From Cordylochernes scorpioides (taxonomy: Eukaryota; Arthropoda; Arachnida; Pseudoscorpiones; Chernetidae), in contig CP092863.1 of assembly GCA_030710605.1 (NCBI GenBank), positions 116,750,680 to 116,814,679 on the forward strand: a stretch of 64,000 nucleotides of DNA, in the 5' to 3' direction. The position numbers were made by a program, and so were the translations under genes. The stretch's first letter is position 1; each line of letters begins with the position of its first letter. Shown piece by piece: positions 1-62,829 of the stretch. Under the pieces are notes generated by a model. That model ran no database searches. It saw nothing but the letters and a program-made list of their open reading frames with translations, and had not been told where the DNA came from.

Positions 1-1
1 G

Positions 2-391
2 GTCAAAAATAAGAGAAATAACATAAAAGGAGGCAAACAACAGAATAATAAAACTGAAGATATTGAGAAGAATTCTTCAGAAATATTGAAACCCGTGGAA
101 AAAGATGGTATCGGCGAAATTAAGAAGAAACAAGCCAAAGTTGAAAAAGTTGATAAGCAAAAAAACAAGATTGTCGGCTGGTTTCAATGCGCCTGCATTT
201 GGTTAATAACGAAAATGATGGATATTATCCTAATTATTGATTCTAACCTCAAGTTTGGTTTGAAAACTATCAAGAATATCTTAAACCCCAAACCCAAGAG
301 GAATTACTCCAAAGCATTCAAGAGAGCGCTGATTTCAAAGAAAGGCTGGGATGGTAGAATTGAAAATAATTTTTTCAAAAAGCAAGGATAA
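2..391 (+). CDS. C-terminal fragment of an unidentified protein
   Basis: The frame is open from the window edge to a TAA at about 389-391, giving some 130 residues; the true start lies upstream. The first 60 residues are very rich in Lys, Asn and Glu. A hydrophobic stretch (VGWFQCACIWLITKMMDIIL) could be a membrane segment or buried helix. The tail is basic, with KPKRNYSKAFKRAL and ends FFKKQG. AATAAA overlaps the stop, so this may be a last exon with a very short 3' UTR. I do not recognise the family. It could also be a chance open frame in AT-rich sequence, but the length and mixed composition favour a real terminal exon. Confidence 0.35.
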   Translation, partial: VKNKRNNIKGGKQQNNKTEDIEKNSSEILKPVEKDGIGEIKKKQAKVEKVDKQKNKIVGWFQCACIWLITKMMDIILIIDSNLKFGLKTIKNILNPKPKRNYSKAFKRALISKKGWDGRIENNFFKKQG

Positions 392-750
392 TAAATATAG
401 ATGCTTTACATAAATATATTTTTCTAAATTTAAATAAAACTTGATCATCCACACACATTTTTGAAAATTTAGTTTGTATCCTGAATTTTCTTTTTTAATA
501 TATAAAGTAGTTGAAATGGTTTGTATGTTTTAAAACTAACTTGTTTTTCTTATATTGAATATATTTTAAACTAAGAAACACTTATATCTATACCCTATTT
601 GTGGCATATATTGTAGTTGTACCATATAAATAATACATCCAGACTTCTGGCGTATATCCTTAGATCGTCAACTACCCGGTTTTATTAAAGTTTTCAAAGC
701 TCTCATTGATTCAAAATTAAAAGAGGTAATTTGTATAAGAATCATTATAT
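392..750. other. AT-rich intergenic sequence
   Basis: No gene, RNA or recognisable repeat is seen here. It ends in ATAT at 747-750, the left target-site duplication of the Gypsy element. Confidence 0.5.
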
Positions 751-979
751 TGTCAAGCGGCTCCAACCACGAGAGGCCCCATGGGACGCCTGTCAATCAT
801 CCCTGGACACCGGGTGTGAGGGGTTTCTCGGAATCTGGTCGGCGGGGGGAGCTGACGTCGTTCATTGAGGATTAGCTTTAACTGGGGGTAAGTTGTACTT
901 TCTCGCTCCCCCTATAAATACCCCTTATAATAAATTAATTATCCCCAAACTTGCCTTTGCTTTATTTATCTCCGCGACA
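751..979 (+). repeat. Left LTR of the Gypsy element
   Basis: 229 bp, TG to CA termini, matching 5979-6215. It contains a TATA box (TATAAATA, 913-920) and an AATAAA signal (929-934), so it has its own promoter and polyadenylation signals. Confidence 0.92.
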
Positions 980-986
980 TATTTTG

Positions 987-2234
987 ATGGAGACGCTGGG
1001 TAGCGTGACGGAACTTCGAAGAAGTCGACGTCTACAGGGACGTGAACCAATTCTTCAACCTTTGCCACAACGAATAGAAATGGAAGACGACCACAGACCT
1101 ACTGTTAGCGGATCCTACCTCCCTTGTCAGCGCCAACGAGATCCTTCTACCTTTTCTGGAGATGGAAATATAAACCCTGAACAGTGGTTGAAAGAGTACG
1201 AGAGAGTGTCGAAGTACAACAGATGGGACGAGACCATGAAGCTTGTCAACGTCGTATTTTACTTGAACGGAACTGCTGGAAGGTGGTTTAATAATAACGA
1301 AGAATCACTCAACTCGTGGAGAAGCTTTGAAGACGCATTCCGCGGTGTGTTCGGACTGCAGGAGGATTCTGCTCGACGCGCCGAGGAAGTTCTGAAGTCA
1401 AGAGCACAGAAGGCCGAGGAATCCAGCGAGTCATACATCCAGGAGATTCTTAGTCTCTGCCACCAGGTGAACCCTCGCATGGAAGAAGGTGAGATAGTTG
1501 CACACATTATAAAGGGAATTTCGGAGGACACATACCAGGTATTGGTGGCGAAAGACATACAGACAGTAGATGAGATCCTGAAGTTTTGCCGTCATCTGAC
1601 AACCGTCAAGCAGCGCAGGATCGGCCGTACGAAATTCGCCAGGTTGTCAAACGTAATGCCCATTTCGTGTGTTGACGACTCAGACGACTTGGCCGGCTTA
1701 ATTCGCCGCATCGTTAGAGGAGAGATACAAAAGGTTTTCTCAGCACCTGAAGTGATCAATCCGCTCCGAGAGGTGAACGCCCTGGAACAGACTGTGAGGG
1801 AAGATGTCAGCCGTGCTCTACAACCTACCACACCACAAGTCAACGTGGTACAACAACAACCACGAACGCCCTATTATAATATCGACCGGCCAACCCAACC
1901 CAGGAAGACGGAACATTGGAGAACCTACGACGACAATCCTATCTGCTTCCACTGCGGACGACCCGGACATGTCGTCCGTTATTGTAGGGAACGACGGCAG
2001 GTCTTCGCTGAAGCCAGGTCAAGGAATGGCGGAGAAGGAAGAAATGTTGGATTTTCGAGTCGACCCCCGAGATATGACGCCGACGACGACTATGTAACGC
2101 CCCAAACCTCGACGTACTTCTACCGGAGCTCTTCCCCACATCCAAGCCGCGCAAGGTCGCTAGCCCGAAGACAATCCCAGTCGCCAGCCCGTCGTTTCAG
2201 CCGTTCTCCCAAGCCTCAGAATGTGAAAAACTAA
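987..2234 (+). CDS. gag: Gag polyprotein of the Gypsy element
   Basis: The first ATG after the left LTR, at 987, opens a 415-residue frame. Residues about 45-230 match the retrotransposon gag fold: a PSTFSGDG-type start, then the helical capsid-like region with W-L and FEDAFRGVFG signatures. A single CCHC zinc knuckle (CFHCGRPGHVVRYC, residues about 320-333) would bind the RNA genome. The C-terminus is Arg/Ser-rich (SRSPKPQ), also typical of nucleic-acid binding. The frame is intact, unlike pol. Pol begins in another frame that overlaps the last codons of gag, so expression of pol would have needed a ribosomal frameshift. The longer open frame begins inside the LTR at a non-ATG codon and is not the likely start. 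Confidence 0.85.
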   Translation: METLGSVTELRRSRRLQGREPILQPLPQRIEMEDDHRPTVSGSYLPCQRQRDPSTFSGDGNINPEQWLKEYERVSKYNRWDETMKLVNVVFYLNGTAGRWFNNNEESLNSWRSFEDAFRGVFGLQEDSARRAEEVLKSRAQKAEESSESYIQEILSLCHQVNPRMEEGEIVAHIIKGISEDTYQVLVAKDIQTVDEILKFCRHLTTVKQRRIGRTKFARLSNVMPISCVDDSDDLAGLIRRIVRGEIQKVFSAPEVINPLREVNALEQTVREDVSRALQPTTPQVNVVQQQPRTPYYNIDRPTQPRKTEHWRTYDDNPICFHCGRPGHVVRYCRERRQVFAEARSRNGGEGRNVGFSSRPPRYDADDDYVTPQTSTYFYRSSSPHPSRARSLARRQSQSPARRFSRSPKPQNVKN

Positions 2235-2950
2235 GTGGAGCGGCTTCTAACGGGGGTGAGGTCGCCATTGAGGAAAATCCTCCAGGGTATATCGCCGCTA
2301 AATTAAAAGAAAATTTTGTTATGGTCGAAATAAATGGACGCAAAATTAAACCATTGGTGGATTCAGGAGCCGACTTTTCTGTTATCTCAGACAAATTTAG
2401 ACGCGAACTAAAGACACCTCTTTTCAAAGAACCAGGTCCCATTCTTAAAGCCGCAAACAAAAATTTAATAGAGACCCTAGGAAAATGTGTCCTGAACATA
2501 GAAGTTAATGGTCTGAATATCTCATTTGAATTGGTTGTTATGGTGGAATGCAGCCATGACATCATATTTGGATGGGACTTCTTCAAGGCCACCGAGGCCG
2601 TCATTGATTGTGGCAGAAATGAACTCCATCTCGGGGAAACCTCCGTCCTGGAATCTCGAGAGGAGGAAAACCAGAGGTTGTTTGCTTCCGACGACTTTGT
2701 CATCCCGCCTAAATCAATAAAGAAGATAAGTGTGATAAACGAAGAAATATGTGGTGTTAGAGATGTTTTAGTCTCAACTTCTAAGGACTTATTATTAAGA
2801 AAGGAAGTTCTTATACCAAACTCATTGGTTACATTTCGACACGGCCGAGGTAGCATTTGGGTGGCGAATGGAGCGTCTTGGCCGCAACTGATTCCATCAG
2901 GAATGAATATGTGCAAATCTATAAAACGAAGAGAAAAATTATTTTATTAA
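2219..2950 (+). pseudogene. pol: Gypsy pol, aspartic protease segment
   Basis: This frame overlaps the 3' end of gag in a different phase and stays open until a stop at about 2948-2950. It carries the retropepsin active site as LVDSGADFSVIS (around 2355-2390) followed by the flap region and a hydrophobic-hydrophobic-GWD motif (IIFGWDFF, about 2563-2585). The protease would cleave the Gag-Pol polyprotein in the particle. The stop falls inside an inserted palindrome (2916-3112). Taking that insertion out puts this frame in phase with the reverse transcriptase frame that resumes at 3114, so the break is secondary. Confidence 0.8.
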
Positions 2951-3112
2951 AATGCATAGGCTACTAGCTTTCGGGCTCCAAGCCCTTCCACAGGTACCTG
3001 TGGAAGGGCTTGGAGCCCGAAAGCTAGTAGCCTATGCATTTTAATAAAATAATTTTTCTCTTCGTTTTATAGATTTTTACAATTCATTAAGAGAAATTTC
3101 GTCAATCTCATT
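2916..3112. mobile_element. Palindromic retroelement insertion inside Gypsy pol (Penelope-like?)
   Basis: Positions 2915-3076 form a perfect, spacerless 162-bp palindrome (two 81-bp arms, axis between 2995 and 2996), followed by 36 further bases. The whole is flanked by a 14-bp direct repeat, AATGAATATGTGCA (2902-2915 and 3113-3126), a target-site duplication. Each arm holds GAAGGGCTTGGAGCCCGAAA followed by TTTTAATAAAAT. The insertion closes the protease frame, and without it the flanking pol frames are in phase. The same design and core recur at 56653-56837. A target duplication of this size fits target-primed retrotransposition. The hairpin followed by GAAA recalls the ribozyme-bearing terminal repeats of Penelope-like elements, but that assignment is inference. 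Confidence 0.6.
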
Positions 3113-3113
3113 A

Positions 3114-4675
3114 ATGAATATGTGCACCATGGAAAGTTATGAGAATGGGAATATCTGCAGTCTTATTGAATTCAGCGATAAGTTACAAGAAACGCAGCTA
3201 AAGTCACGTGAATGGTCACAGAAGATAAACCTTACTCTAGATCCAGGGCTGTCTGAAATTCAAGGGTTACAGCTTGTTTCATGCCTTGACGAGTTTATTG
3301 ACATATTTGACTTTGGGAGTACTCCTATTAAGCCCACCAGTACTGTGAAGCACAAGATAAACATAGGAGACCACTCTCCTATCAAACAGCGGCCCTATAG
3401 AGTAGCACCAAGTAAACGACGACTAATTCAAGATGAAGTGAACAAGATGATTGAAAATCACATCGTGAAGCCCTCTGAAAGTCCTTGGTCATCTCCAGTT
3501 ATTCTAGTTCGAAAGAAAGACGGGACCTGGAGATTCTGCGTAGATTACCGTCGATTAAATAAGATAACAAAAAAAGATGTTTACCCGCTGCCACGCATTG
3601 ACGATGCCTTGGACAGTTTAGCCGGCTCTAGTTACTTCTCCACGATGGATCTTCGGTCCGGGTATTGGCAGATTGAAGTGGACGAAAAAGAAAGGGAGAA
3701 AACTGCTTTCATCACTCCAGATGGGCTGTATGAATTCCAAGTAATGCCTTTCGGTCTTTGCAACGCTCCAGCAACGTTTGAAAGGATGATAGATAGTGTT
3801 CTGGGCAGTCTTAAATGGAACATGTGCCTTTGCTACCTGGACGACATCGTAGTTTACGCACCTACCTTTGAGGAACATCTACGTCGTCTACAACTTGTAT
3901 TAAGCTGCATCCAGAAAGCTGGACTAAGCTTGAACCACAAAAAGTGTCTTTTTGGATCAAGGAGGATAAAGATTTTGGGACACCTTGTTGACGCCAATGG
4001 AATTCATCCAGATATAGTTGAAGCCGTCTCTAAATTTCCGAGGCCAAGGAATATCTCTGAACTGAGGAGCTTTCTTGGATTATGTTCCTATTACCGAAGA
4101 TTTATTGAGAACTTTGCCGACAAAGCTAGATCTTTGCATGACCTACTGAAGACTGAAAAACAATTCTATTGGGATGCAGCTCAAGAGAAAGCGTTTGAAG
4201 TCCTTAAAACAGCTCTAATTTCAGCGCCTGCCTTGGGACACTTTGATGAATCCGCTGATACCCATCTACACACGGATGCAAGCGGACATGGTATTGGAGC
4301 TGTTCTTCTACAAATACAAGGAGGAAAGGAGCGGCCTATAGCTTATGCATCTAGAAGCTTGACAAAGGCTGAAATAACTATTCTACAACGGAAAAAGAAC
4401 GCCTTGCTGTAGTCTGGTCTATTAGCAAATTCCGCCCATATTTGTTTGGTCGATTATTCACGGTTGTCACTGACCATCATTCTCTATGTTGGTTGGTATG
4501 GCAGAAAGATCCTTCTGACCGTTTGGCAAGATGGGCGCTGAAGTTGCAAGAATTTGACGTGACCGTTATCTACAAGAGCGGACGCAAACATAAGGATGCC
4601 GATTGTCTGTCAAGGAGCCCGCTTGAGAACGATCAACCAAGTGCTGTGATGTCACTAACCAACGGATTTAGCTAA
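3114..4675 (+). pseudogene. pol: Gypsy pol, reverse transcriptase and RNase H segment
   Basis: The reverse transcriptase motifs stand in order: SPWSSPVILVRKKDGTWRFC, then VDYRRLNKIT (about 3540), FSTMDLRSGYWQIEV (about 3640-3680), VMPFGLCNAPATFERM (about 3745-3785) and the catalytic YLDD (3834-3845). It continues through the thumb and connection into an RNase H domain of the Gypsy type (LHTDASGHGIGAVL, about 4268-4310). A one-base frameshift near 4371-4376 ends the first frame at 4412; RNase H resumes in the next frame with [10 protein letters not shown] and [10 protein letters not shown], ending at a stop at 4675. A second shift just before that stop separates it from integrase. Confidence 0.88.
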
Positions 4676-5943
4676 AATAATCGATGATTTAAACTCGGGC
4701 TACACCAGAAAGGAATTCAGCATTATCGAAGGCATCTTATACAAGAAAAACTATAGCACAACTGGAAGACCCTGGCTTATGATGATCCCTAAGCACTTAA
4801 GATCGGAAGTTAGGGCAGATTTACATGATGATCCTACAGCTGGGCATTTGGGGTTCGCCCGGACGTATGACAAAGTCAAGAAAATTTTCTATTGGCCTGG
4901 CCTTTATAGAGCTGTTCGCCAATATGTAAGCCATTGTTGGGAGTGTCAACGAAGGAAGAAATTACCTCGACGTCCGGCTGAACAACTTGTATCCATAACA
5001 CCTGTAGAAAAGCCATTCTATAAAGTCGGGGTTGATCTCCTTGGAAGATTTCCAGTTTCTAAAGATGGAAACCGTTGGATCATTGTGTGCACCGATTATA
5101 TGACAAGGTATGCCATAACGAAAGCGATCCCAGACGGAGGAGCAATCGAAACAGCTAAGTTCCTGGTTGAAAACGTCATCTTGAAGCATGGAGCTCCTAG
5201 AGAAATGATAACAGATCGGGGCAGAAATTTCATTTCTCAAGTAATAAAAGAGATCAATGCTCTGTGCGGAATTGTGCACAGATTTACAACGGCCTACCAT
5301 CCCCAGACCAACGGCCTGACTGAAAGGTTCAACAAAACTCTGGGAGACATGTTGTCCATGTACAGAGGTGTTGAGCAGAAGGACTGGGACCAAATTTTGC
5401 CCTATGTAACTTTTGCTTACAACACTACTAAACAGGAGGCGACCGGCTACACCCCGTTCTTTCTTGTCCACGCCCGCGAGGCCGAGACCTACATCGATGC
5501 CGTACTACCCTACCTACCAGATGAGATCTCTGACGACTACGTTGGAGAACTTGTGACCAGAGCTGAGGAAGCGCGTCAACTCTCCCGATCACGCCTTCTA
5601 CAATCACAGGCGAAAGACAGTAGACTATACGACCAGAAACATACTCCAGTCTATTACCAGAAGGATGATCTTGTGTGGGTTTTTACTCCCATCCGAAAAG
5701 TAGGACTATCAGAAAAGCTACTGAAGAGATACTTCGGTCACCTACAAGGTGACCAAGAAGCTTTCAAAAGTTACGTATGAAGTAGAGCCCGTGGACCCCT
5801 CTCCCCGATCACGGAAAGCCAAGGATATCGTCCATGTCATTCGGATGAAGCCCTACCTGGACCCTGAAGAACAACATTCTATTCTGCTAGGGAACACCAG
5901 CCGTGATAGATTTCCTTCCAGAACAAGGGCTGAGACAAGCTAA
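4676..5943 (+). pseudogene. pol: Gypsy pol, integrase segment
   Basis: The open frame up to 5780 carries the HHCC zinc-binding domain (AGHLG through CWECQRRK, about 4838-4960) and a DDE core with VGVDLLGRF (about 5030), ITDRGRNF (about 5208) and NGLTERFNKTL (about 5312). YNTTKQEATGYTPFFLV is the usual conserved end of the core. A frameshift near 5735-5745 cuts the C-terminal domain; it continues in another frame to 5943, with a KVTYEVEPV stretch like the chromatin-contacting SH3-like domain of Gypsy integrases. Integrase would join the cDNA to the target; the flanking ATAT is its footprint. In this copy it is broken. Confidence 0.87.
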
Positions 5944-5978
5944 TCAGCGGGTCGCTGTTTTCTCTAAGGAGGGGGTAA

Positions 5979-6215
5979 TGTCAAGCGGCTCAACGGCTCC
6001 AACCACGAGAGGCCCCATAGGACGCCTGTCAATCATCCCTGGACACCGGGTGTGAGGGGTTTCTCGGAATCTGGTCGGCGGGGGGAGCTGACGTCGTTCA
6101 TTGAGGATTAGCTTTAACTGGGGGTAAGTTGTACTTTCTCTCTCTCCCTATAAATACCCCTTATAATAAATTAATTATCCCCAAACTTGCCTTTGATTTA
6201 TTTATCTCCGCGACA
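5979..6215 (+). repeat. Right LTR of the Gypsy element
   Basis: 237 bp, starting TGTCAAGCGGCTC and ending CCGCGACA, next to the purine tract at about 5966-5976. It differs from the left LTR by an 8-bp duplication near its start and a few substitutions, so the insertion is not very recent. ATAT follows at 6216-6219. Confidence 0.92.
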
Positions 6216-6224
6216 ATATATATG

Positions 6225-6290
6225 TATAAGTCAATGTATGTATGTATGTATGTATATATGTTTGTTGGCTATGCATGCCCTCAATACGTA
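6225..6290 (+). mobile_element. Remnant of a Helitron 5' end with a TATG microsatellite
   Basis: An (ATGT)n tract is followed by TGTTTGTTGGCTATGCATGC and CCTCAATA. Nearly the same words, in reverse complement, close the Helitron at 58368-59010. I read it as a truncated 5' end of that family. Confidence 0.4.
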
Positions 6291-6330
6291 ACTAATTTTA
6301 GTATATATAGGTGAATATGGAAAGACTTAC

Positions 6331-6457
6331 GGTTGAATTTTAAGGTTTCTATCTCGAATATCCTTGGAGGTATTCATAAATTTGACAATTTCACTCGCAA
6401 CCAGCGCTCCACTGCGGTTACTGAGATAAGTTTCGGTTTTGACAAAGCCTGCTGCAC
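6331..6457 (-). CDS. Probable orphan internal exon of an unidentified host gene
   Basis: Read on the minus strand, this piece is open in one frame with a protein-like composition: GFVKTETYLSNRSGALVASE, then IVKFMNTSKDIRDRNLKIQ. It ends exactly at a consensus donor, CAACC followed by GTAAGT (intron start at 6330). Upstream, CTTCGTCTTGAAG ends in AG and could be the acceptor. I cannot name the protein. No other exon is visible, so it may belong to a gene with long introns in which the Gypsy and Tigger elements sit, or it may be an isolated relic. Confidence 0.4.
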
Positions 6458-7129
6458 CTTCAAGACGAAGATTTAATAATATAATTTTCAAATATTGTTG
6501 TAAAAACTTTACTTTTTAATATTTTGAGGCAACATTATAAAGTTTTTACTAAAATTATTTTTATGGGTTAAAAGTTTACTATACACCCATCCCCCGATTT
6601 ACACGGTAGATACGTTCCTGAGAAAAACGTGTAAATCGAAAATTAAAAATTTTCAAGTCAAAACCGTGTAAATCGAAAAGCTTGCAGAAAATGCATAATT
6701 TTGCTATTTAACAGTTGTGATTTTTTTCAATATTTTTAGGTGTACACAGAAATAAAAATAAAATGCATTGACAGGTTAAAATATGTATATTATGGAAACA
6801 CTGTTTTTTTTATATAAATACAATACATACATAAACAGAAGAACAAAAAATAAAACCAAAGGTGTTTTATTTTCCTTCATCACTGTCAGAAATTACTCTC
6901 ATTCTTTTTTTTCGGAATCGAAGGTTCGAATTCACTTTCATCACTTGAGGTTATTTATGCCGATTCGATGTTTGAAGCAGAAATATTAACATTATGAGAG
7001 ATGGTAATAAAATCGGTTATTAACAATTGCTTCGAATTTTTTGTAAGATCTTTGTAAACTTCTTCATATTGAGCCAAGCAGCGATTTATGTCACGTTGGA
7101 ATCGTAAAGCCCTTTCAACGTTTGTGTCA

Positions 7130-7964
7130 TCTATAATATATTTGCCTTATTCTGTCTGTTTGTCTGTCTGAAGCTCACGGATGGGAATTTTCATAACCAT
7201 CGGTGGTTCAGTGGTAGAATGCTCGCCTGCCACGCGGGCGGCCCGGATTCGATTCCCGGCCGATGCATTTTTTTTTTTTTTACAATTTTTAAAACTCATT
7301 TCTATATTATACAAGAATGACATCCACGGCGCCAATTTATAATTGTAACGAATAGTATTTGAATAAAAGCATTTAATCGGGTAAAACCCGGGCGTTGCCC
7401 GGGTCATTCGTATATAATAATTGTATAAACGAATGCAAGACAAAATCACCGCGAATGTTTCTTTTTTTAAGGCAATTTCTTTTTAAGGCAATTATCGTTA
7501 TTTATCGTTAATTTTTGTTTCGATTTTATTAAAAAAAAAACGATATGGTGCCTTTAAAAAATGATCTTTATTACTATGCAGTTTTCTATTTAGTCAATAT
7601 ACCTAAGTTCATGTTGCAAATGTAATTATCTCTATCGATTTAGTAGGTGAAATGCAAAAAAAAAAAATCGACATGATGAAATCTTTATGAAAATTCACAT
7701 TTTTATTTTTATATTTTCAAGACACACACAGTTTGGGGCGGGACGTTTCACAAGAGAGACATCCACGGCGCCAATTTATAATTGTAACGAATAGTATTTT
7801 AATTAAAACATTTTTAAAACACACAGTTTGGAACGGGACGTTTCACAAGAGTGACATCCATGGCGCCAATTTATAATTGTAACGAATAGTATTTGAATTG
7901 AAACGTTTTTAAAATATATACGCACTCGGGTAAAACCCGGGCGTTGCCCGGGCCATTCGTCTAG
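7130..7964 (+). mobile_element. Non-autonomous Helitron, 835 bp, carrying a tRNA-Gly-like sequence
   Basis: The 5' end is TCTATAATATATTTGCC followed by TCTGTCTGTTTGTCTGTCTG; the 3' end has a 7-bp stem hairpin (CCCGGGCGTTGCCCGGG) 11 nt ahead of CTAG (7961-7964). It lies between A7129 and T7965, the AT target of Helitrons. Removing it rejoins the Tigger transposase frame without loss or gain, so the boundaries are secure. Inside are a tRNA-Gly-like sequence (7197-7267) and repeated copies of GGCGCCAATTTATAATTG, with an inner hairpin copy at about 7388-7404 that lacks CTAG. No Rep/helicase is encoded. Confidence 0.85.
7197..7267 (+). pseudogene. tRNA-Gly(GCC)-like sequence within a Helitron
   Basis: It keeps the A box (GGTTCAGTGGTAGAA), an anticodon arm with GCC (TCGCCTGCCACGCGGG) and most of the B box, and is followed by a T run that would stop RNA polymerase III. 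The acceptor starts with C instead of G, giving a mismatch at the first pair, and the T stem has an A where G is expected. It is therefore probably non-functional. A second copy sits in the Helitron at 9465-10222 with the same downstream sequence. Confidence 0.75.
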
Positions 7965-9464: not shown

Positions 9465-10222
9465 CTAGCCGAATGACCCGGGCAACGCCCGGGTTTTACC
9501 CGATTAAATGCTTTTATTCAATTACTATTCGTTACAATTATAAATTGGCGCCGTGGATGTCATTCTTGTGAAACGTCCCGCTCCAAACTTTGTGTCTGAG
9601 AAGCGATATTTTTATAAAGAGATGATCGGGTTTGTGTCTTCTGCTCGAATGAATGTTTTTCTGTTAGAATTTTGTTCCTGCACACTAAAAATGAACTGGC
9701 TTCACCCGTGGTCTCTGCTTTTTGGAATTTTTCCGGGTATAATTTTGTATCTGATAATCAAATATGATACAGCAATATTGTCATCATCATTTTCTGAATA
9801 AAAAACAACTACTTTTTCCCAGAACCTGTCAATTTATTTTTCTTGACTAAAAATGCGAAAAATATCTTTTCCAGGTTTTTCTCTATGTCCTGTTAAAACA
9901 CGTTTTACATGTCCATTAGGTCAGCTGATATTACCTCCCATCTTCACCGCTATAGGCGCTGCTTGCGAGCGAAAGGGCAAATTTGCAACGCAATTTGCAA
10001 ATAACTTGTATACATACTTGTATACTTGTGTACATAGACCATAAATCTGTACATAGACAGGAAAAGCACATATATTTTAATAATAAAAATGAGTTTTAAA
10101 AATTGCAAAAAAAAAAAAAAAAATGCATCGGCCAGGAATCGAACCCGGGGCGCCCGCGTGGCAGGCGAGCATTCTACCACTCAACCAAAAGCAAACGGTA
10201 ACAGAATTGTGCATGACTCTGA
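9465..10222 (-). mobile_element. Non-autonomous Helitron on the minus strand, tRNA-Gly bearing
   Basis: On the minus strand the 3' end reads CCCGGGCGTTGCCCGGG, TCATTCGG, CTAG (ending at 9465) with T next to it. The element inserted about 10 bp upstream of the Tigger transposase start. Its 3' third matches 7318-7964, and it also has an interior segment shared with the Helitron at 58368. The 5' end is less certain: TCAGAGTCATGC at 10222 is a fair candidate because AGGCTTATAAT is found on both sides. Confidence 0.7.
10124..10192 (-). pseudogene. tRNA-Gly(GCC)-like sequence, second copy
   Basis: On the minus strand: GAGTGGTAGAATGCTCGCC, the GCC anticodon arm, an intact GGGTTCGATTCC B box, GATGCA and a T run of about 17. 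The 5' acceptor half has diverged (GCTTTTG) and cannot pair with CCGATGC. The sequence after the T run (GCAATTTTTAAAACTCATTT) is shared with the copy at 7197, so the two spread as part of the Helitron. Confidence 0.7.
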
Positions 10223-14399: not shown

Positions 14400-14544
14400 T
14401 AGTTATATATGTATAATGCAAAGCGTAAAAATAATTCATTTAATATTTGTGTATTATAATATTAGTATAGAGAGCCTTTATATACGGAGTTTGTGTTTTT
14501 TCCGGTCTCTCCTGGATATTGTCTTTTATTGGAGTTTGGATTAT

Positions 14545-15757
14545 ACAGTAGAGTCTCCCATGAGAGACAACGACCAAACTCGATCTCTCCTGTAGTTGGT
14601 CTCTTATTGGAGGTTGGGTTATACAGTAGTATCCCATGAGAGACCATAGTCTAAATCTGGTCTCTTATTGGAGGTTGGGTTATACAGTAGTATCCCATGA
14701 GAGACCATAGTCTAAATCTGGTCTCTTATTGGAGGTTGGGTTATACAGTAGTATCCCATGAGAGACCATAGTCTAAATCTGGTCTCTTATTGGAGGTTGG
14801 GTTATACAGTAGTATCCCATGAGAGACCATAGTCTAAATCTGGTCTCTTATTGGAGGTTGGGTTATACAGTAGTATCCCATGAGAGACCATAGTCTAAAT
14901 CTGGTCTCTTATTGGAGGTTGGGTTATACAGTAGTATCCCATGAGAGACCATAGTCTAAATCTGGTCTCTTATTGGAGGTTGGGTTATACAGTAGTATCC
15001 CATGAGAGACCATAGTCTAAATCTGGTCTCTTATTGGAGGTTGGGTTATACAGTAGTATCCCATGAGAGACCATAGTCTAAATCTGGTCTCTTATTGGAG
15101 GTTGGGTTATACAGTAGTATCCCATGAGAGACCATAGTCTAAATCTGGTCTCTTATTGGAGGTTGGGTTATACAGTAGTATCCCATGAGAGACCATAGTC
15201 TAAATCTGGTCTCTTATTGGAGGTTGGGTTATACAGTAGTATCCCATGAGAGACCATAGTCTAAATCTGGTCTCTTATTGGAGGTTGGGTTATACAGTAG
15301 TATCCCATGAGAGACCATAGTCTAAATCTGGTCTCTTATTGGAGGTTGGGTTATACAGTAGTATCCCATGAGAGACCATAGTCTAAATCTGGTCTCTTAT
15401 TGGAGGTTGGGTTATACAGTAGTATCCCATGAGAGACCATAGTCTAAATCTGGTCTCTTATTGGAGGTTGGGTTATACAGTAGTATCCCATGAGAGACCA
15501 TAGTCTAAATCTGGTCTCTTATTGGAGGTTGGGTTATACAGTAGTATCCCATGAGAGACCATAGTCTAAATCTGGTCTCTTATTGGAGGTTGGGTTATAC
15601 AGTAGTATCCCATGAGAGACCATAGCCTAAATCTGGTCTCTTATTGGAGGTTGGGTTATACAGTAGTATCCCTTGAGAGACCATAGTCTAAATCTGGTCT
15701 CTTATTGGAGGTTGGGTTATACAGTAGTATCCCATGAGAGACCATAGTCTATAAACA
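14545..15757. repeat. 61-bp tandem satellite, about 19 copies
   Basis: The unit holds GGTCTCTTATTGGAGGTTGG, GTTATACAGTAGTATCCCAT and GAGAGACCATAGTCTAAATC. Copies are almost identical through the middle and decay at both edges. The unit begins GGTCTCT and has AGAGACC 40 nt later, so it can form a hairpin. The left edge (TATACAGTAGAGTCTCCCAT) resembles the end of a cut-and-paste transposon, which may be the source. Confidence 0.92.
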
Positions 15758-16285
15758 TGTCTAAACCCAGTTTCCCCTGGGGGTGGTCTCTTATTGGAGG
15801 TTAAACTGGAAAAACCGGTTATAAGCCATATTAATGTGCCTTAACAAAGCTATGTATGAAAGTATGTCTTTCTAGGGTTCCGGGTATTATCTCGACAGCC
15901 AATTCCAGTAATGCCCGACAGCTTGAGATTGCAATGAAAATAAACTCCTCTCCAGAAAGCTGTTGCATTATTTAATAGGGAACATTTATTCATTATCGCA
16001 GGTTTGCAGATTTCAACAAATTACAAGAAGGTATAAGAATCTATTTTTAAAACTCTTTTTTATTTTATAGATTTGCAGCGTCTTATACCTTTTTGTAAAA
16101 AGAACATTTATATCAAATCATTAGCTATCAATATGTTAAATTGAAACTATACATTGACAACTAAAACATATCGAAAATATATTGTATTTATTAGAAAATT
16201 AAAAATTACATTAAGAAATTGAGCAAGGATTGAAGATGAGTATGTGATAGTATAGACCATGTGTCCTCTTCTATTGAAAAAGTTC
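15758..16285. other. Intergenic / 3' flank of the PABPN1-like gene
   Basis: No gene seen. A diverged satellite unit with GGTCTCTTATTGGAGGTTAA lies at 15786-15806. AATAAA for the minus-strand gene occurs at about 16185-16190. Confidence 0.4.
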
Positions 16286-24798: not shown

Positions 24799-24898
24799 NN
24801 NNNNNNNNNNNNNNNNNNNNNNNNNNNNNNNNNNNNNNNNNNNNNNNNNNNNNNNNNNNNNNNNNNNNNNNNNNNNNNNNNNNNNNNNNNNNNNNNNN
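24799..24898. other. Assembly gap, 100 N
   Basis: Exactly 100 N, the usual placeholder for a gap of unknown size. The Tigger-derived MITE lies just before it. Confidence 0.98.
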
Positions 24899-28384: not shown

Positions 28385-28644
28385 AGGTCTTGGTGTTAAA
28401 TCGAGAACCTAGAACAGGCAGTCTTCGCTTGGATCTCACCGAGGTAACACTTGCTCTAAAGATCTCTCTCTCCTCGTCCCATTCCTTCTTGACGTTCAGA
28501 CGCTTCTTAGTGGAATCTCTGTTTGTTTATTTCACCTTTGGCCCAGCTGTGTCGCCTTCCACCACGACTGCACGGTAGAGTTGACATCGAGGTTCGTCTA
28601 GCATCAGGTAACACTGGTCCCAGAGGTCCCAAGATATCACATAT

Positions 28645-29942
28645 ATTGGTTATCTCGTGTGTCTTCAATAAAGGTCACTGTAATATCTTTCAGAGTTATT
28701 GTCTCAATCCCGATATACATGGTAAAAAGTACAACTTCCTTAAGTTTTGTCCATGAGTGTATATTGTTTATCTCGTGTGTCTTCAATAAAGGTCACTGTA
28801 ATATCTTTCCGAGTTATTGTCTCAATCCCGATATACATGCTAAAAGGTACAACTTCCTTAAGTTTTGTCCATGAGTGTATATTGGTTATCTCGTGTGTCT
28901 TCAATAAAGGTCACTGTAATATCTTTCCGAGTTATTGTCTCAATCCCGATATACATGGTAAAAAGTACAACTTCCTTAAGTTTTGTCCATGAGTGTATAT
29001 TGGTTATCTCGTGTGTCTTCAATAAAGGTCACTGTAATATCTTTCAGAGTTATTGTCTCAATCCCGATATACATGGTAAAAAGTACAACTTCCTTAAGTT
29101 TTGTCCATGAGTGTATATTGGTTATCTCGTGTGTCTTCAATAAAGGTCACTGTGATATCTTTCAGAGTTATTGTCTCAATCCCGATATACATGGTAAAAA
29201 GTACAACTTCCTTAAGTTTTGTCCATGAGTGTATATTGTTTATCTCGTGTGTCTTCAATAAAGGTCACTGTAATATCTTTCCGAGTTATTGTCTCAATCC
29301 CGATATACATGGTAAAAAGTACAACTTCCTTAAGTTTTGTCCATGAGTGTATATTGGTTATCTCGTGTGTCTTCAATAAAGGTCACTGTAATATCTTTCA
29401 GAGTTATTGTCTCAATCCCGATATACATGGTAAAAAGTACAACTTCCTTAAGTTTTGTCCATGAGTGTATATTGGTTATCTCGTGTGTCTTCAATAAAGG
29501 TCACTGTAATATCTTTCAGAGTTATTGTATCAATCCCGATATACATGGTAAAAAGTACAACTTCCTTAAGTTTTGTCCATGAGTGTATATTGGTTATCTC
29601 GTGTGTCTTCAATAAAGGTCACTGTGATATCTTTCAGAGTTATTGTCTCAATCCCGATATACATGGTAAAAAGTACAACTTCCTTAAGTTTTGTCCATGA
29701 GTGTATATTGTTTATCTCGTGTGTCTTCAATAAAGGTCACTGTAATATCTTTCAGAGTTATTGTCTCAATCCCGATATACATGGTAAAAAGTACAACTTC
29801 CTTAAGTTTTGTCCATGAGTGTATATTGTTTATCTCGTGTGTCTTCAATAAAGGTCACTGTAATATCTTTCAGAGTTATTGTCTCAATCCCGATATACAT
29901 GGTGAAAAGTAAAACTTCCTTAAGTTTTGTCTCCATGAGTGT
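28645..29942 (-). repeat. 118-bp satellite, 11 units, MITE-derived
   Basis: The length is exactly 11 x 118 bp. Each unit holds TTATCTCGTGTGTCTTCAAT, AAAGGTCACTGTAATATCTT and AAGTTTTGTCCATGAGTGTA, the last being the terminal repeat of the MITE at 11322. Units differ at a few sites (TTTCCGAG or TTTCAGAG; TGGTTATC or TGTTTATC). The array ends in the MITE terminus at 29942. The many small open frames that repeat every 118 bp are a product of the array. Confidence 0.93.
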
Positions 29943-30570
29943 AAACTTCTCGTCTACTTTCTTGTATTATTTTATACTTCTTGTCTATTTCTCGTTTACT
30001 ATTAATCTCTCTTTCGTTTCTACTTGTTGTTAAAATTTACGACGTTGGTTTTAGGGTTTTAAGATAACGCCTTTTGATGAAAAAACGACATATCTAGGAC
30101 CATAAAGCATGTACCATGCTAAAATGAATAAAACACTAGGGTGTGTTATATCATATCCTTGAGTTGTACATTTTTAATGAAGTTTACTTTATAGGGGTTT
30201 AAAAGTAAATAGGGTTTTCCAAAGAGAAATGGTCATAGTTAGTTATATAATTATATCCTTGCAAGTACAGTTGAATCTTTCTATATATACCCTCTTTTGA
30301 TTTTAGTTCTATTAAAGCATTTATGGATTTTTTAGTGTTTACTTTATAAAAAATATATAATTCGATAATCGTGCGATACTCTCTCGAAAATAGTGAAACA
30401 CTGTTTGTTTTATAAAAATGCCATTGATTTTTTGGAAATCTGAGAAAAAATAATGAATAATTTGCATAAATACGTGTTGACAGTTTTATTTTTTCTTCTC
30501 AAAATGAAGTCTTTAGGTGAAAATTTTGCATAAATATGTTTTGTAAACAAAAATGAAACGGATGATCTAT
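29943..30570. other. Intergenic, upstream of the small gene
   Basis: AT-rich; TTTGCATAA words at 30460 and 30528 resemble the octamer nearer the gene. Nothing else supported. Confidence 0.35.
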
Positions 30571-37572: not shown

Positions 37573-39650
37573 CTGTTGTATTGTTGTTGTTGTCGTGTCC
37601 AATGAAGAGTCTCAGATGTCTCCATACATCTCTATCACAGCAATGTTCTCTATCTTGGGTGTGTATACTGTATTGTTGTTGTCATGTCAAAGAAGAGTCT
37701 CAGATGTCTCCATACATCTCTATTACAGCAATGTTCTCTATCTTGGGTGTGTATACTGTATTGTTGTTGTTGTCGTGTCCAATGAAGAGCCTCAGATGTC
37801 TCCATGCAACTCTATCACAGCAATGTTCTCTATCTTGGGTGTGTATACTGTATTGTTGTTGTTGTCGTGTCCAATGAAGAGCCTCAGATGTCTCCATGCA
37901 ACTCTATCGCAGCAATGTTCTCTATCTTGGGTGTGTATACTGTATTGTTGTTGTCGTGTCCAATGAAGAGCCTCAGATGTCTCCATGCAACTCTATCGCA
38001 GCAATGTTCTCTATCTTGGGTGTGTATACTGTATTGTTGTTGTCGTGTCCAATGAAGAGCCTCAGATGTCTCCATGCAACTCTATCACAACAATGTCCTC
38101 TATCTTGGGTGTGTATACTGTATTATTGTTGTTGTCGTGTCCAATGAAGAGCCTCAGATGTCTCCATACATCTCTATCACAGCAATGTTCTCTATCTTGG
38201 GTGTGTATACTGTATTGTTGTTGTCATGTCAAAGAAGAGTCTCAGATGTCTCCATACATCTCTATTACAGCAATGTTCTCTATCTTGGGTGTGTATACTG
38301 TATTGTTGTTGTTGTCGTGTCCAATGAAGAGCCTCAGATGTCTCCATGCAACTCTATCACAGCAATGTTCTCTATCTTGGGTGTGTATACTGTATTGTTG
38401 TTGTTGTCGTGTCCAATGAAGAGCCTCAGATGTCTCCATGCAACTCTATCGCAGCAATGTTCTCTATCTTGGGTGTGTATACTGTATTGTTGTTGTCGTG
38501 TCCAATGAAGAGCCTCAGATGTCTCCATGCAACTCTATCACAACAATGTCCTCTATCTTGGGTGTGTATACTGTATTATTGCTGTTGTCGTGTCCAATGA
38601 AGAGCCTCAGATGTCTCCATACATCTCTATCACAGCAATGTTCTCTATCTTGGGTGTGTATACTGTATTGTTGTTGTTGTCGTGTCCAATGAAGAGCCTC
38701 AGATGTCTCCATACATCTCTATTACAGCAATGTTCTCTATCTTGGGTGTGTATACTGTATTGTTGTTGTTGTCGTGTCCAATGAAGAGCCTCAGATGTCT
38801 CCATGCAACTCTATCGCAGCAATGTTCTCTATCTTGGGTGTGTATACTGTATTGTTGTTGTTGTCGTGTCCAATGAAGAGCCTCAGATGTCTCCATGCAA
38901 CTCTATCACAGCAATGTTCTCTATCTTGGGTGTGTATACTGTATTGTTGTTGTTGTCGTGTCCAATGAAGAGCCTCAGATGTCTCCATGCAACTCTATCA
39001 CAGCAATGTTCTCTATCTTGTGTGTATACTGTATTGTTGTTGTTGTCGTGTCCAAAGAAGAGTCTCAGATGTCTCCATACATCTTTATCACAGCAATGTT
39101 CTCTATCTTGTGTGTATACTGTATTGTTGTTGTTGTCGTGTCCAAAGAAGAGTCTCAGATGTCTCCATACATCTCTATCACAGCAATGTTCTCTATCTTG
39201 TGTGTATACTGTATTGTTGTTGTTGTCGTGTCCAAAGAAGAGTCTCAGATGTCTCCATACATCTTTATCACAGCAATGTTCTCTATCTTGTGTGTATACT
39301 GTATTGTTGTTGTTGTCGTGTCCAAAGAAGAGTCTCAGATGTCTCCATACATCTCTATCACAGCAATGTTCTCTATCTTGTGTGTATACTGTATTGTTGT
39401 TGTTGTCGTGTCCAAAGAAGAGTCTCAGATGTCTCCATACATCTTTATCACAGCAATGTTCTCTATCTTGTGTGTATACTGTATTGTTGTTGTTGTCGTG
39501 TCCAAAGAAGAGTCTCAGATGTCTCCGTATATCTCTATCACAGCAATGTCCTCTATCATGAGTGTGTATACTGTATTGTTGTTGTTGTCGTGTCCAATGA
39601 AGAGTCTCAGATGTCTCCATGCAACTCTATCACAGCAGCAGCAATATCCA
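37573..39650 (-). repeat. 92/90-bp minisatellite derived from a LINE 3' end, about 22 copies
   Basis: Plus-strand unit: TTGTTGTTGTCGTGTCCAAT, GAAGAGCCTCAGATGTCTCC, ATGCAACTCTATCACAGCAA, TGTTCTCTATCTTGGGTGTG, TATACTGTA. On the minus strand each unit encodes VYTPKIENIAVIELHGDI and a stop, which mirrors the LINE C-terminus at 63442 (LYTPKIVDIAAAVMEMHGCI), then the LINE tail. From about 39010 the units lose 2 bp, become 90 bp and alternate CTTTATC and CTCTATC, a 180-bp higher-order repeat. The left part has a block of about 542 bp present twice (AAAGAAGAGTCTCAG near 37690 and 38232). Long open frames on both strands result from the 90-bp period. Confidence 0.9.
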
Positions 39651-40251
39651 CTATCTTGGGCTGTTCTTCATTGGAAAATGGGTGCCGTTGCCACGTTAGT
39701 CACCTTGGAAACGAAACCGATCCTGTTGTGTATTTAAAGATATACAATTATTGTGTGTGTAGATTTTTGTATCTGAATAATTAATTCAGCTTTAAAAGTT
39801 CAAATGTTGGAACTTTGTCACCAATAGTTTGAAAACCTTTTTTTGGAGCTAAAATATATGACTCTATGTTAAAGAAGCTGTTAATAAAAAAAAGTGATAC
39901 AATCATCACGAATTTGACTTATATTTCAACATGTTATGGGGATTCAAACGTCACATATATAAATTATTTTTTAAAACAATTTTATGGATAGACGTCAATG
40001 GTAAAAAAAAAAACTCGCTAATCTTGACTAGAGAGATAACCCGGGTTCCTAGAGTACAAAACGATTCAGTTCTTTAACAATTAAGTAATAAAAAAGTTTG
40101 TTTGTTAAAAGAGAGAGAAACTCAACACAAAGTTTTCTTTTAAAATATTATATGTAGTTTTTGTGTCTTGCCCTTTTTCAATCTGTAGTTATAATGAGTG
40201 GAAGATGCAATATAACTCTATATTAACACAAAGCAATAACGCAAAGCAATG
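39651..40251. other. Flank of the minisatellite, no gene
   Basis: The last repeat unit at 39600-39660 keeps CACAGCAGCAGCAATATCCA, closer to the LINE than the array units are. Beyond it nothing is recognised. Confidence 0.4.
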
Positions 40252-43560: not shown

Positions 43561-43803
43561 CTTTTTTTGTAAAAGAAAGAATGCCCCAGCGCAGGTGGTA
43601 ATATTAAAAAAGGAATCTCCTGATCTTGCAATTGATATTTGTTGATGGCTTGTCAACAAACCATTCGGTCTCTTGACAATATATTCGGTCCTTCGACAAA
43701 CCACTCGGTCTCTAGACATCCGATTGGTCAGTCCACAGACCACTTTGTCACTTGACAATACATTCAGTTCTTCGACAAACCAGTCTCTAGACATCCCATT
43801 GGT

Positions 43804-44868
43804 CAGTCCACAAACCAATCGCCAAAACCAGCCAACTTTTCAGTCCACAAACCAATCGCCAAAACCAGCCAACTGTTCAGTCCACAAACCAATCGCCAAA
43901 ACCAGCCAACTGGTCAGTCCACAAACCAATCGCCAAAACCAGCCAACTGGTCAGTCCACAAACCAATCGCCAAAACCAGCCAACTGGTCAGTCCACAAAC
44001 CAATCGCCAAAACCAGCCAACTGTTCAGTCCAAACCAATCGCCAAAACCAGCCAACTGGTCAGTTCACAAACCAATCGCCAAAACCAGCCAACTAGTCAG
44101 TCCACAAACCAATCGCCAAAACCAGCCAACTGGTCAGTCCACAAACCAATCGCCAAAACCAGCCAACTGTTCAGTCCACAAACCAATCGCCAAAACCAGC
44201 CAACTGGTCAGTCCACAAACCAATCGCCAAAACCAGCCAACTGGTCAGTCCACAAACCAATCGCCAAAACCAGCCAACTGGTCAGTCCAAAAACCAATCG
44301 CCAAAACCAGCCAACTGGTCAGTCCACAAACCAATCGCCAAAACCAGCCAACTGGTCAGTCCACAAACCAATCGCCAAAACCAGCCAACTGGTCAGTCCA
44401 CAAACCAATCGCCAAAACCAGCCAATTGGTCAGTCCACAAACCAATCGCCAAAACCAGCCAACTGGTCAGTCCACAAACCAATCGCCAAAACCAGCCAAC
44501 TGTTCAATCCACAAACCAATCGCCAAAACCAGCCAACTGGTCAGTCCACAAACCAATCGCCAAAACCGGCCAACTGTTCAATCCACAAACCAATCGCCAA
44601 AACCAGCCAACTGGTCAGTCCACAAACCAATCGCCAAAACCGGCCAACTGTTCAATCCACAAACCAATCGCCAAAACCAGCCAACTGGTCAGTCCACAAA
44701 CCAATCGCCAAAACCAGCCAACTGGTCAGTCCACAAACCAATCGCCAAAACCAGCCAACTGGTCAGTCCACAAACCAATCGCCAAAACCAGCCAACTGGT
44801 CAGTCCACAAACCAATCGCCAAAACCAGCCAACTGGTCAATCCACAAACCAATCGCCAAAACCAGCCA
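43804..44868. repeat. 37-bp minisatellite, about 29 copies
   Basis: Unit: CAGTCCACAAACCAATCGCC, AAAACCAGCCAACTGGT. Variation is mainly GGTCAG, GTTCAG or GTTCAA. The unit has no stop in any plus-strand frame, so a 459-residue frame (43673-45052) runs through it with a 37-residue period (NQSPKPANWSVHKPIAKTSQ). Nothing else supports a protein. The left flank has related words (CAGTCCACAGACCACTTTGTC) and is probably decayed repeat. Confidence 0.9.
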
Positions 44869-45424
44869 ACTTGCGACGCCATTGGTTTTTCGGCCGAACC
44901 GCGACAAACCGATCAGTCCAGCCCGACAAAAGAACAAAGGCACCGGACATCCTCTCCGATACTGTCAAACAATGGCGACACTCAAATTGAATTGTGGAAG
45001 GATTAGCCCACGGACTGGCAACAAGGACTTCCCGCGGGATTGCACAGTCTGATGACGGGAAATCTCTTCACTTTCAGCACTCTACGTGCGACGAACAATC
45101 GGCCAAAAAAGTCATGTCGCAAAATTCTTACAAAATTATGTCACGAAAATGTGTTTCGCTAATAAAACCTACCACTAACCCGCAACACGACGCAAATTTT
45201 AACAAGAAGTTAACGAGGGGTAGCCAAGTGTATAATTGTCGTGTTTTGTTTAGGATCAGGTATTTATGTTAATTTTATCGTTTAAAATGCCAATTGAATG
45301 TCTCTCTATTCTCTGGGGACCAACCTAGCCTTCGAGCACAGTTAAAGTTTATCGCCCGCTTTTTCCTTTATAGAGTGAAAACATCGCTTTACTACTGTTC
45401 TGAGAACTTGGTTGAAAGAAAACC
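44869..45424. other. Right flank of the 37-bp array
   Basis: More GC-rich for about 200 bp (CGGCCGAACCGCGACAAACC), then AT-rich. No homologous repeat or gene recognised. Confidence 0.35.
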
Positions 45425-49290: not shown

Positions 49291-50104
49291 TTGACTATTA
49301 GACTGAAATTCTTATACGAGTGAATGGATGTGTTTAAAGAGAAATATGGATATATGCAACTAGTAATGTAGAAATTTATACTAAAAAAAATAATTTAACA
49401 TGGATATCTAATATTAGATCAAGTGTTCCAGCTATTCCATTGGTCAGGTACTCTCCACTAATCCTGTAAGCCATCAGACCACTATGTAAATAGGGTCAAG
49501 TCCATAATGTTAATCCGCTCAGTTACGGGAATACCTTATTTATGACGGAGCTAAGAAAAGAAGGACTCCCACGCCTCTTGTAAGTTCGTGATCTACATTT
49601 GGTGGTTAACAGAGAGGCGATGGTGGTGGTGCTTATCTCCATGGTTAAACCAATTCCTGAAGTCCACTCCTCTACAATTTTGCGATAGTAGTTATAAGCC
49701 TTGTTTTGAGGCGGTGTTTTGTTAAGGAAGCTTTGTGTTTTTTACACGAGAAAACAACGATCATTGAATGTTTTAAGACGGAATCATATATATATATATA
49801 TATATATATACTTACAACACATTCTGCGCAAATGTAACGAGTCCTTTTTTCTCTGGAATTTAAATTTAAATGTATAATTGTCCCTCTTCAATCTTGATAT
49901 CATAGTTTTTTTTTACCTTCAGAGTATTTCAACGAGTGAATAGCGAAATATAGAAAAGTGAAAAAATTGAGAGACGAGAAGAACTATTGTGCACGTTTGA
50001 AAAAGCGTTGACAAGATATCTTATATTGTACATCGAAATCATAACGGTGAAAGTTTTAAAAGAAAGTATTTTATAAATCCCCTAAAAACTTGTCATACAG
50101 TGCA
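49291..50104. other. Intergenic, no gene
   Basis: A (TA)n run at 49789-49811 and AT-rich sequence. Nothing else supported. Confidence 0.35.
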
Positions 50105-52322: not shown

Positions 52323-52879
52323 GCAGTCCAATTGCCCGCAGGTAACAATGGGCTAATTACTGGCGCCCATTGTTGGCGTCAGAATTGGGTGACATCAATT
52401 GGGGAGGGGAACATCTCGAACATATGTGCTCTATCCACTCCTGGCACACAGAGAAACTTTGCACGTTGCTGACGTAGATTCAACCCCCATCCAGGTTTTT
52501 TGAAGAATGTGACAAATCCTCTACCGTCGGACACTCTACATTATCTTCACTTTGACAATGTTCTGCAAGGTCAACTCGTTGCTCATCGATTCTCTTCATT
52601 GATGTGTCTAGAGATTCATTCTTTAAGTTTAATCTACGATACAAATTCTATCGTAACAGCCACTTGGCTTTTCCAAAAGAAAGAAGAATTCTAGCTTTTT
52701 CAATACAGAATTCCTCAGGGAAATTACCGCTACAATCTTTAACGCACTACACACAAAACCAATAATGAAATCAGAGAATAAAGAATAATTGACAATAGAC
52801 CCAATAACATTTATCATTGGCGCCGACTACAAAAAATATCCAGAATAAAGGTTTATACTTATCGACAAAAATTCAGAAA
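52323..52879. other. Right flank of the 85-bp array
   Basis: A small inverted word pair (CCCATTGTTGGCGTC against GCGCCCATTGTT-type sequence) occurs near 52350-52380. No gene is supported. Confidence 0.35.
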
Positions 52880-59010: not shown

Positions 59011-59039
59011 AACGAAATAAAAAAATAAAAGATAAAAAG

Positions 59040-62825: not shown

Positions 62826-62829
<4 letters not shown>
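59040..62829. repeat. Giant palindrome of 351-bp snapback-derived repeats
   Basis: Five full 344/351-bp units and a partial one run forward to 60930; from 60960 the same number run in reverse to 62829. The spacer is 29 nt (60931-60959). The unit contains AATGGCATATCCTGACCAGG, GCGCCATCTGGTGGAACAG, GAACGCGTTTCGCGCTTTTT and GTAAATACGCTTAGCACATT, and is one arm plus loop of the snapback element at 19104. Unit spacing from the outside in is 344, 351, 351, 351, 351 on the left and 344, 351, 344, 351, 350 on the right, so the arms are not exact mirror copies. TA-rich runs border both ends. Confidence 0.93.

Follow-up and report, generated by a model that had tools for sequence, protein, structure and literature searches.

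A perfect palindrome in a pseudoscorpion genome as a probable strong-stop product of a Penelope-like element

Within a 64,000-nt stretch of the genome of the pseudoscorpion Cordylochernes scorpioides (assembly GCA_030710605.1, contig CP092863.1, positions 116,750,680 to 116,814,679 of the forward strand; hereafter the window), a flawless palindrome interrupts the pol region of a long terminal repeat (LTR) retrotransposon, named Gypsy in the initial annotation from the sequence alone. We propose that a Penelope-like element (PLE) with an endonuclease probably left this insert as its minimal, 'strong-stop' product, in which two complementary DNAs (cDNAs) of the element's 5′ leader stand head-to-head between the copies of a target-site duplication.

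The palindrome, its copies and their source element

A script comparison of positions 2915-3076 with their own reverse complement gave 0 mismatches and 0 spacer over 162 bp, and this is the longest palindrome of the whole window; the next ones listed fall within a run of 100 N at 24799-24898, an assembly gap that yields a false 'palindrome' when the scan pairs N with N. Exact 14-bp repeats of AATGAATATGTGCA, the left and right copies of the target-site duplication, flank the insert at 2902-2915 and 3113-3126, and 36 additional bases (3077-3112) lie between the palindrome and the right copy. Recomputation therefore bore out the initial description: inside a Gypsy copy lies a flawless palindrome, extended by 36 bases and bracketed by a 14-bp duplication. 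With the G of GTACC numbered +1, the insert resolves into a tailless arm on the reverse strand, running from +1 at position 2997 to +82 at 2916, and a tailed arm on the forward strand (2994-3112, +1 to +119; delimited from the palindrome, the extra bases and the comparison with element units), both being cDNA of a Penelope leader. The arms have in common the GTAC at 2994-2997, the palindrome centre, which recurs at other places and at which inner ends pile up, marking the head-to-head junction at the presumed RNA 5′ end. The 36-nt 'tail' (3077-3112, forward strand) is present on one arm only, a feature already known for Penelope elements from two studies (PMC3846280, PMC11167929). Rfam matches of the palindrome were mostly of the microRNA type, which scores any long hairpin, and all lay below the cut-offs, so that a microRNA-type identity was rejected.

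Copies were sought in the window's own assembly (2.62 Gb, 24 contigs). A query of positions 2902-3126 gave 958 first-look candidates, the best 40 of which were scored, yielding 80 matches at 40 places (both strands at each) with 91-100% identity in the better orientation. The self-reverse-complementary pattern CCAAGCCCTTC-N(6-36)-GAAGGGCTTGG, which captures short head-to-head junctions, occurred at 138 places, the exact GTAC-overlap centre at 58 places in several subfamilies, and two complete GTACC starts spaced by 0-16 nt at 58 places. A motif just inside the arm was present at 649 places with up to 2 mismatches; among the first 100 of these, 36 neighbour pairs (within 7 kb, known duplicates kept) were head-to-head, 0 tail-to-tail and 4 in tandem, and 24 places were single, some of the latter being whole palindromes whose second arm fell outside the pattern (e.g. 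L018). The gaps of the 36 head-to-head pairs were exactly 4 bp in 15 (at least 3 of them counted together with a duplicate), 6-37 bp in 5 and 144-3055 bp in 16. For closer reading, 93 short-junction loci were fetched (L001-L030, L062-L099, L102-L126); a script found the centre in 90, of which 81 were distinct once loci with the same duplication were counted once.

The regions around the motif places hold ~3-kb units with an 834-codon open frame (798 codons from the first ATG), and the palindrome arm is the leader of this unit, its first ~120 nt at the 5′ end. The element protein matched RVT_1 above the cut-off in two copies (E=1.9e-10 and 1.1e-11), contains a YIDD motif and gave 3 weak reverse transcriptase matches in a PDB sequence search (E about 0.045). 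Its C-terminal block GGSVYSVSC..C...YIGETGRS...EH...H..TTGH, identified by eye, was unchanged in 11/11 aligned copies, which had been chosen as relatives and were 90-100% identical, and it resembles the motif block of Penelope-type GIY-YIG endonucleases. Tandem units, giving pseudo-LTRs (pLTRs), were seen in 3 loci as 4 neighbour pairs on the same strand, 2980-3002 bp apart, and also in L056-L058. A Penelope-type origin, as first suggested, is upheld by longer copies with a reverse transcriptase that share the arm, the tail and the duplications; of the reverse transcriptase and the GIY-YIG endonuclease to be looked for in such copies, the former is identified by its RVT_1 match and the latter is suggested by Penelope-like motifs seen by eye. 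By contrast, the idea of an undescribed, separate palindrome family is not supported, as the arm is the beginning of the ~3-kb element, inverted copies have these outer ends whatever their length, and no two of the 28 non-standard junctions described below are alike.

Read in the element frame, the tail is open and gives NNFSLRFIDFYNSLREISSISLK; with the first ATG later, at about +163 and behind the tail, no claim of its translation is made. A hammerhead ribozyme in the pLTR is a feature of most Penelope families. Rfam gave no hammerhead match in the palindrome, the arm, the pLTR and its neighbourhood, and a core-like CYGUNGA-stem-GAAA seen by eye in the leader (near 2998-3024 on the forward strand of the tailed arm), whose free position varies between subfamilies, has A6 changed to U and no convincing stems I/III. 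Folding of the leader RNA did not stand out from that of shuffled sequences (z 0.27). When 65 tailed arms were folded to a consensus, two short stems emerged, GGGC/GCCC and UUCUC/GAGAA, the latter of which (about +65 to +105 in the leader) encloses the putative first reverse-transcription start site; because both are nearly invariant and lack covariation, no structural claim is made for them.

Arm ends, junctions and templates

The outer ends were located from exact repeats between the flanks. In a narrower search of the 90 loci, the longest exact flank repeat reached at least 11 nt in 81, compared with at least 10 nt in only 10 of 444 shuffled pairings, and a wide search found repeats of at least 11 nt in 83/90 loci, 74 of them distinct, so that the further inverted dimers with duplications that the initial annotation had called for do exist. 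In 71/74 of these distinct short insertions one end lay at or before +95 and the other at or beyond +105, with modes at +85 for the last base of the tailless arm and, on the tailed side, at +121 for the base with which the duplication begins. As the query taken from the window was itself asymmetric, the fair subset consists of the 56 distinct loci found otherwise, of which 50 had an exact repeat of at least 11 nt and 48/50 followed the one-tail rule. Of 22 long inverted pairs tried, 21 could be anchored, and in 21/21 a tail was present on one arm and absent from the other; arms were shortened internally in L153 and L165, and the targets of L101 and L167/L168 were tandem repeats. The duplications of the 74 loci measured from 11 bp (the cut-off used) to 18 bp with a mode of 13-14 bp, plus a 21-bp call at L015, and their A+T content was 81% in 72 distinct loci. 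The target-primed appearance first noted for the window insertion recurs, in duplications and inverted arms, at many loci. The tail sits on exactly one arm in nearly all insertions tested, as if the two start sites were shared out almost strictly between the arms.

Most inner ends fall on a single base. In 44 distinct loci picked by a 6-36-nt gap alone, 57/88 arm ends lay at +1, 12 lay 1-4 nt upstream and 19 downstream, and 18/44 loci had the exact GTAC overlap; a strict walk over all 81 distinct loci placed 119/162 inner ends at +1, 15 at 1-4 nt upstream and 28 downstream, a figure inflated by loci picked for the exact centre, which makes the gap-chosen 44 the fairer set. Sorted by junction, the 81 loci fall into 48 that show the GTAC overlap, 15 in which a filler separates two arms reaching +1 or slightly past it, 13 with one arm at +1 and 5 with neither. 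In complete copies the sequence extends upstream of GTACC, and a TATATATA box starts at −31 in six strings hand-picked to cover the listed subfamilies. Among 7/24 single places read, a truncated inverted partner was present in L128, L129, L130 and L132, L133 ran upstream into a pLTR, and the single-armed L127 and L131, with neither a partner nor upstream sequence, started exactly at GTACC. The simplest reading of the TATA spacing together with the pile-up of ends is that the element RNA likely begins at or close to +1. At G000:C5:103657973, C17:20284836 and C1:29738170 the junctions appear to extend upstream of GTACC by a few bases on each arm, with other self-complementary words at the centre (AAATTT, AACGTT).

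The narrower search gave 72 distinct loci whose duplication reached at least 11 nt; their centre was canonical in 44 and not in 28, and all 28 of the latter differed from one another, which argues that the palindrome is re-made at each insertion rather than copied as a unit; this diversity also appears to speak against a fold-back loop. Fillers that recurred among the 58 two-start places mostly belonged to neighbours resembling duplicates, the filler AT being found in two different subfamilies. In several loci (e.g. L063, L064 and L022) the filler looks as if copied over a short stretch from the end of the arm itself, and self-copies of this kind would suit a polymerase-theta-like end joining.

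Whether the two arms derive from one RNA or two was judged at a single diagnostic site, +58, a whole-arm nearest-neighbour test having been spoiled by alignment gaps. In the group in which +58 is variable, the arms differed in 8/16 distinct loci (7 G/T, 1 A/G), and in the group that always has T they agreed in 15/15, as they did in five loci of small groups. In an ungapped comparison of 23 loci, 4/9 arm differences sat at +58, one site of 65. The arms of L104 were mixed at two further variable positions, +6 and +9. A k-mer test on eight long pairs counted arm differences for which both states occur elsewhere, finding 3/10 in L059, 5/15 in L058 and 3/7 in L101, and 0 in L056 (of 6), L057 (of 2), L061 (of 1) and L100 (of 5), with no differences in L060; as a distortion near the centre may affect L058 and L101, this test is only suggestive. 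From these patterns it seems rather likely that two RNAs were drawn separately as templates. Arms of L104, L103 and L094 differ at +6 and/or +9, which vary between subfamilies, yet share other rare variants, and a mixed-looking junction at G000:C12:28204869 is known as a pattern match only.

Proposed mechanism and alternative explanations

The arm ends, the asymmetry, the duplications, the junctions and the partner element are given by the sequence, and we infer from them a cap site, priming on two strands, a joining pathway and separate RNA templates. The PLE enzyme would cut AT-rich DNA with a stagger of ~13-14 nt, leaving two 3′ overhangs, each of which would prime reverse transcription inside the element RNA at its own distance from the 5′ end, about +85 for one and about +120 for the other. 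On a read-through RNA the start region would be present twice, near the 5′ end and behind the open reading frame (ORF). Starting at the copy near the 5′ end, each cDNA would be ~80-120 nt long and would run off at or close to GUACC, whereupon the cDNA 3′ ends (...GGTAC-3′) could anneal through the self-complementary GTAC or be joined by host end joining with a filler, the outcome being a spacerless palindrome with one tail and a duplication of ~14 bp. Starting at the copy behind the ORF would instead give long inverted copies truncated at variable points, and the three gap classes of the head-to-head pairs (4 bp, 6-37 bp and 144-3055 bp) agree with two copies of the start region. According to a 2024 study, the purified Penelope-like protein PAc of Anolis cuts and extends both DNA strands in vitro, begins synthesis within its own RNA at two sites that lie close to the start of the ORF and delimit the 'tail', favours AT-rich DNA and is a predicted dimer (PMC11167929). 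On balance, we favour a coupled double target-primed reaction, in which the halves of an enzyme dimer would prime from both overhangs, each bound to a different start, before or after the tail, and the host would join the cDNA 3′ ends.

Several observations weigh against this proposal. The Anolis study saw no dependence of the start site on the strand in vitro (PMC11167929), so that the strict tail asymmetry is unexplained by known biochemistry. No Pfam match to a GIY-YIG domain was found in the element protein, and a fold model of the endonuclease region reached a predicted local distance difference test (pLDDT) score of 36. As to the templates, rare variants are often common to both arms of an insertion (e.g. 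L082 and L104), which would also fit one RNA used twice; duplicates of one insertion differ at the very sites tested (L092/L144 at +58, L093/L098 at +9); and a hotspot or conversion could possibly explain the arm differences at +58. As to the RNA 5′ end, the TATATATA spacing, compared among subfamilies other than those with GGGCTTGACAG, is off by 1-4 nt in a few listed copies; in addition, some junctions seem symmetric upstream of GTACC, with centres such as AACGTT, AAATTT and AATGAAATTTCATT, and the 5′ end may be a cluster and not a single base. Self-complementary upstream centres also fit 3′ ends joined by annealing. The one-tail rule is broken in the automatic call by L015, L070 and L075 (3/74), each of which has another reading that obeys it: in L015 a longer repeat further out was called (the 21-bp case) and a 15-bp duplication fits at 85/121, in L070 a chance repeat was called and a one-mismatch duplication fits the rule, and in L075, with an end at 101, the arm aligns in two pieces, as if a 17-nt insertion were present. 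In seven of the 90 loci no exact repeat of 11 nt was present; L066 runs into the element body, L089 is truncated, and L017, L080, L105, L111 and L123 show, by eye, a tail on one arm and none on the other. Finally, some short arms are cut further in, namely in L074 (~+50), L122 (+62), L106 (+67) and L165 (~+65-72).

A rival account is self-priming, in which an antisense RNA or the first cDNA folds back so that one template gives both arms, and which was proposed, on an antisense template, for rotifer Penelope palindromes at inverted junctions (PMC3846280). Perfect arms, the head-to-head order, rare variants often common to both arms and the junctions symmetric upstream of GTACC would all suit it. 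Nevertheless, it predicts a loop, and 0 arms extend more than 4 nt upstream of +1 at the 81 distinct junctions, which were chosen short; the 28 non-standard junctions all differ; and it leaves unexplained the turn at a TATA-spaced base, the single-armed copies starting there, the separate start site of each arm and the arms with different alleles, so that we regard self-priming as unlikely. Still less likely, in our view, is that the 198-bp palindrome is a non-autonomous unit, such as a palindromic short interspersed nuclear element or a miniature inverted-repeat transposable element (MITE), mobilised by a PLE and copied whole: dozens of copies do have the same centre and uniform ends, but 28/28 non-standard junctions among the 72 distinct loci are unique (the canonical ones being uninformative), inverted copies of every size up to the complete element have these outer ends and duplications too, and the same centre is found in several subfamilies. 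A DNA transposon or MITE was likewise rejected, as the duplication length varies from 11 to 18 bp, the non-standard junctions differ and long copies share the outer ends.

Twin priming, or 5′ inversion, by long interspersed nuclear elements (LINEs) arises when the second DNA end primes on the RNA, giving an inverted segment with a duplication. Were a host LINE to act in this way on Penelope RNA in trans, the ~14-bp duplications and inverted cDNAs would be typical; however, inspection of copies by eye revealed no poly(A) tail, both outer ends lie at Penelope-specific sites, and full overlap of the arms is not expected from one RNA, all of which makes this route highly improbable. An assembly or amplification artefact from a chimeric inverted read is the least credible account, for although inverted chimaeras are known from whole-genome amplification and missed adapters, the duplications have matched flanks at 74 distinct places, the empty sites are clean and the tails are one-sided.

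The host retrotransposon, the rest of the window and known systems

The host LTR retrotransposon, whose pol was hit by the insertion, spans 752-6213 on the forward strand with ends set by eye, and its LTRs are ~98% alike (222/227 aligned bases). The reading frame is open on both sides of the insert (0 stops in 214 codons before it and 429 after), and 90+90 nt of flank joined by script without it form one continuous frame. Among 1178 first-look candidates for further Gypsy copies, the best 40, including the window's own, were scored, and 5 others were read, 5/5 of which had the uninterrupted site, AATGAATATGTGCA directly followed by CCATGG. The uninterrupted sites and the frame that continues without the insert indicate that the palindrome insertion is later than the Gypsy copy, in agreement with the initial annotation, which had argued the same from in-phase flanks. 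Over the 176 bases of the left flank (2740-2915) the best 40 of the 1178 candidates were all 100% identical, and the host element appears to be young and abundant.

The locus (window 1-6725) recurs 61.7 kb upstream at G000:C1:116688900-116695700 (L002, L134 and L135), where the second copy includes the palindrome and flanks beyond the LTRs and carries many small indels. Duplications are shared by 8 pairs of short-junction loci at separate places, 7 of them 43-166 kb apart and one, L125/L126, 32 Mb apart; L092/L144 form a further pair, 213 kb apart. The recurring locus and the pairs with the same duplication would be either uncollapsed haplotypes or segmental duplications. Elsewhere the window holds tandem arrays at 14475-15872, 28524-30003, 37577-39660, 43663-44996, 50011-52434 and 53529-54288, with units of 61, 118, 90-92, 37, 85 and 45 bp, respectively, the 61-bp array being largely 100% uniform. 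Arrays of 351-bp period lie in inverted orientation at 59008-62829, with arms of up to 1104 nt at 100% complementarity, and Rfam tRNA matches were found at 7197-7267 and 10124-10192, the second just above the cut-off.

Retroviral strong-stop DNA is a short cDNA that ends at the template 5′ end, the start region being repeated at both RNA ends. The palindrome arms resemble it, by analogy only, in running off at the template 5′ end, and differ from it in that chromosomal DNA serves as their primer, each event yields two of them, and they are integrated without further change. With LINE twin priming they share an inverted segment and a duplication, and in contrast to it the arms overlap fully, both reach the RNA 5′ end, the starts are internal and fixed, and no poly(A) was seen. 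Retrozymes are bounded by hammerheads and arranged as tandem units. A retrozyme identity was rejected, as Rfam gave no hammerhead and the insert is an inverted dimer, not a tandem one. The palindrome is nonetheless like metazoan retrozymes in being short, non-autonomous and possibly reliant on PLEs, as a study of retrozymes describes for those elements (PMC8969392).

Inverted pLTRs, tails and duplications are already known for Penelope elements. Rotifer PLEs have inverted pLTRs, 31-bp tails, 8-10-bp duplications and a TATATATA box (PMC3846280), and the element here resembles the Penelope/Poseidon-type PLEs with endonuclease of Adineta vaga (Pen, PMC3846280) and Anolis (PAc, PMC11167929) in its ~3-kb unit with one ORF of ~800-840 aa, in tandem and inverted pLTRs, a 30-40-bp tail on an inverted pLTR, TATATATA in the pLTR, short duplications, AT-rich targets and a head-to-head arrangement. 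Unlike the Adineta and Anolis cases, the insertions here consist of only two leader cDNAs with inner ends piled at one base, carry the tail on exactly one arm in nearly all tested, where there it is 'optional', and are numerous enough to count. In addition, the duplications here are mostly 13-14 bp as against 8-10 bp in the rotifer cases seen (PMC3846280), and the tail precedes the first ATG of the open frame, whereas the start sites of rotifers and Anolis are located within the ORF. In a literature search that covered the central papers in part, neither run-off palindromes made of the leader alone nor an obligatory one-tail rule were found described.

On the question of how PLEs insert, and why inverted copies carry a tail on one side, a 2013 study favoured self-priming on antisense RNA (PMC3846280) and a 2024 in vitro study left the later insertion steps unvalidated (PMC11167929). 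In this one genome, dozens of independent insertions have ends that are nearly exact to the base, and they favour an end-to-end joining of two cDNAs. If true, coupled double priming would need no second-strand synthesis by the element, and inverted copies, tails and duplications would be the work of one mechanism, with the palindromes as its shortest products; the question of how PLEs insert can be put to a direct test with the enzyme already used in vitro.

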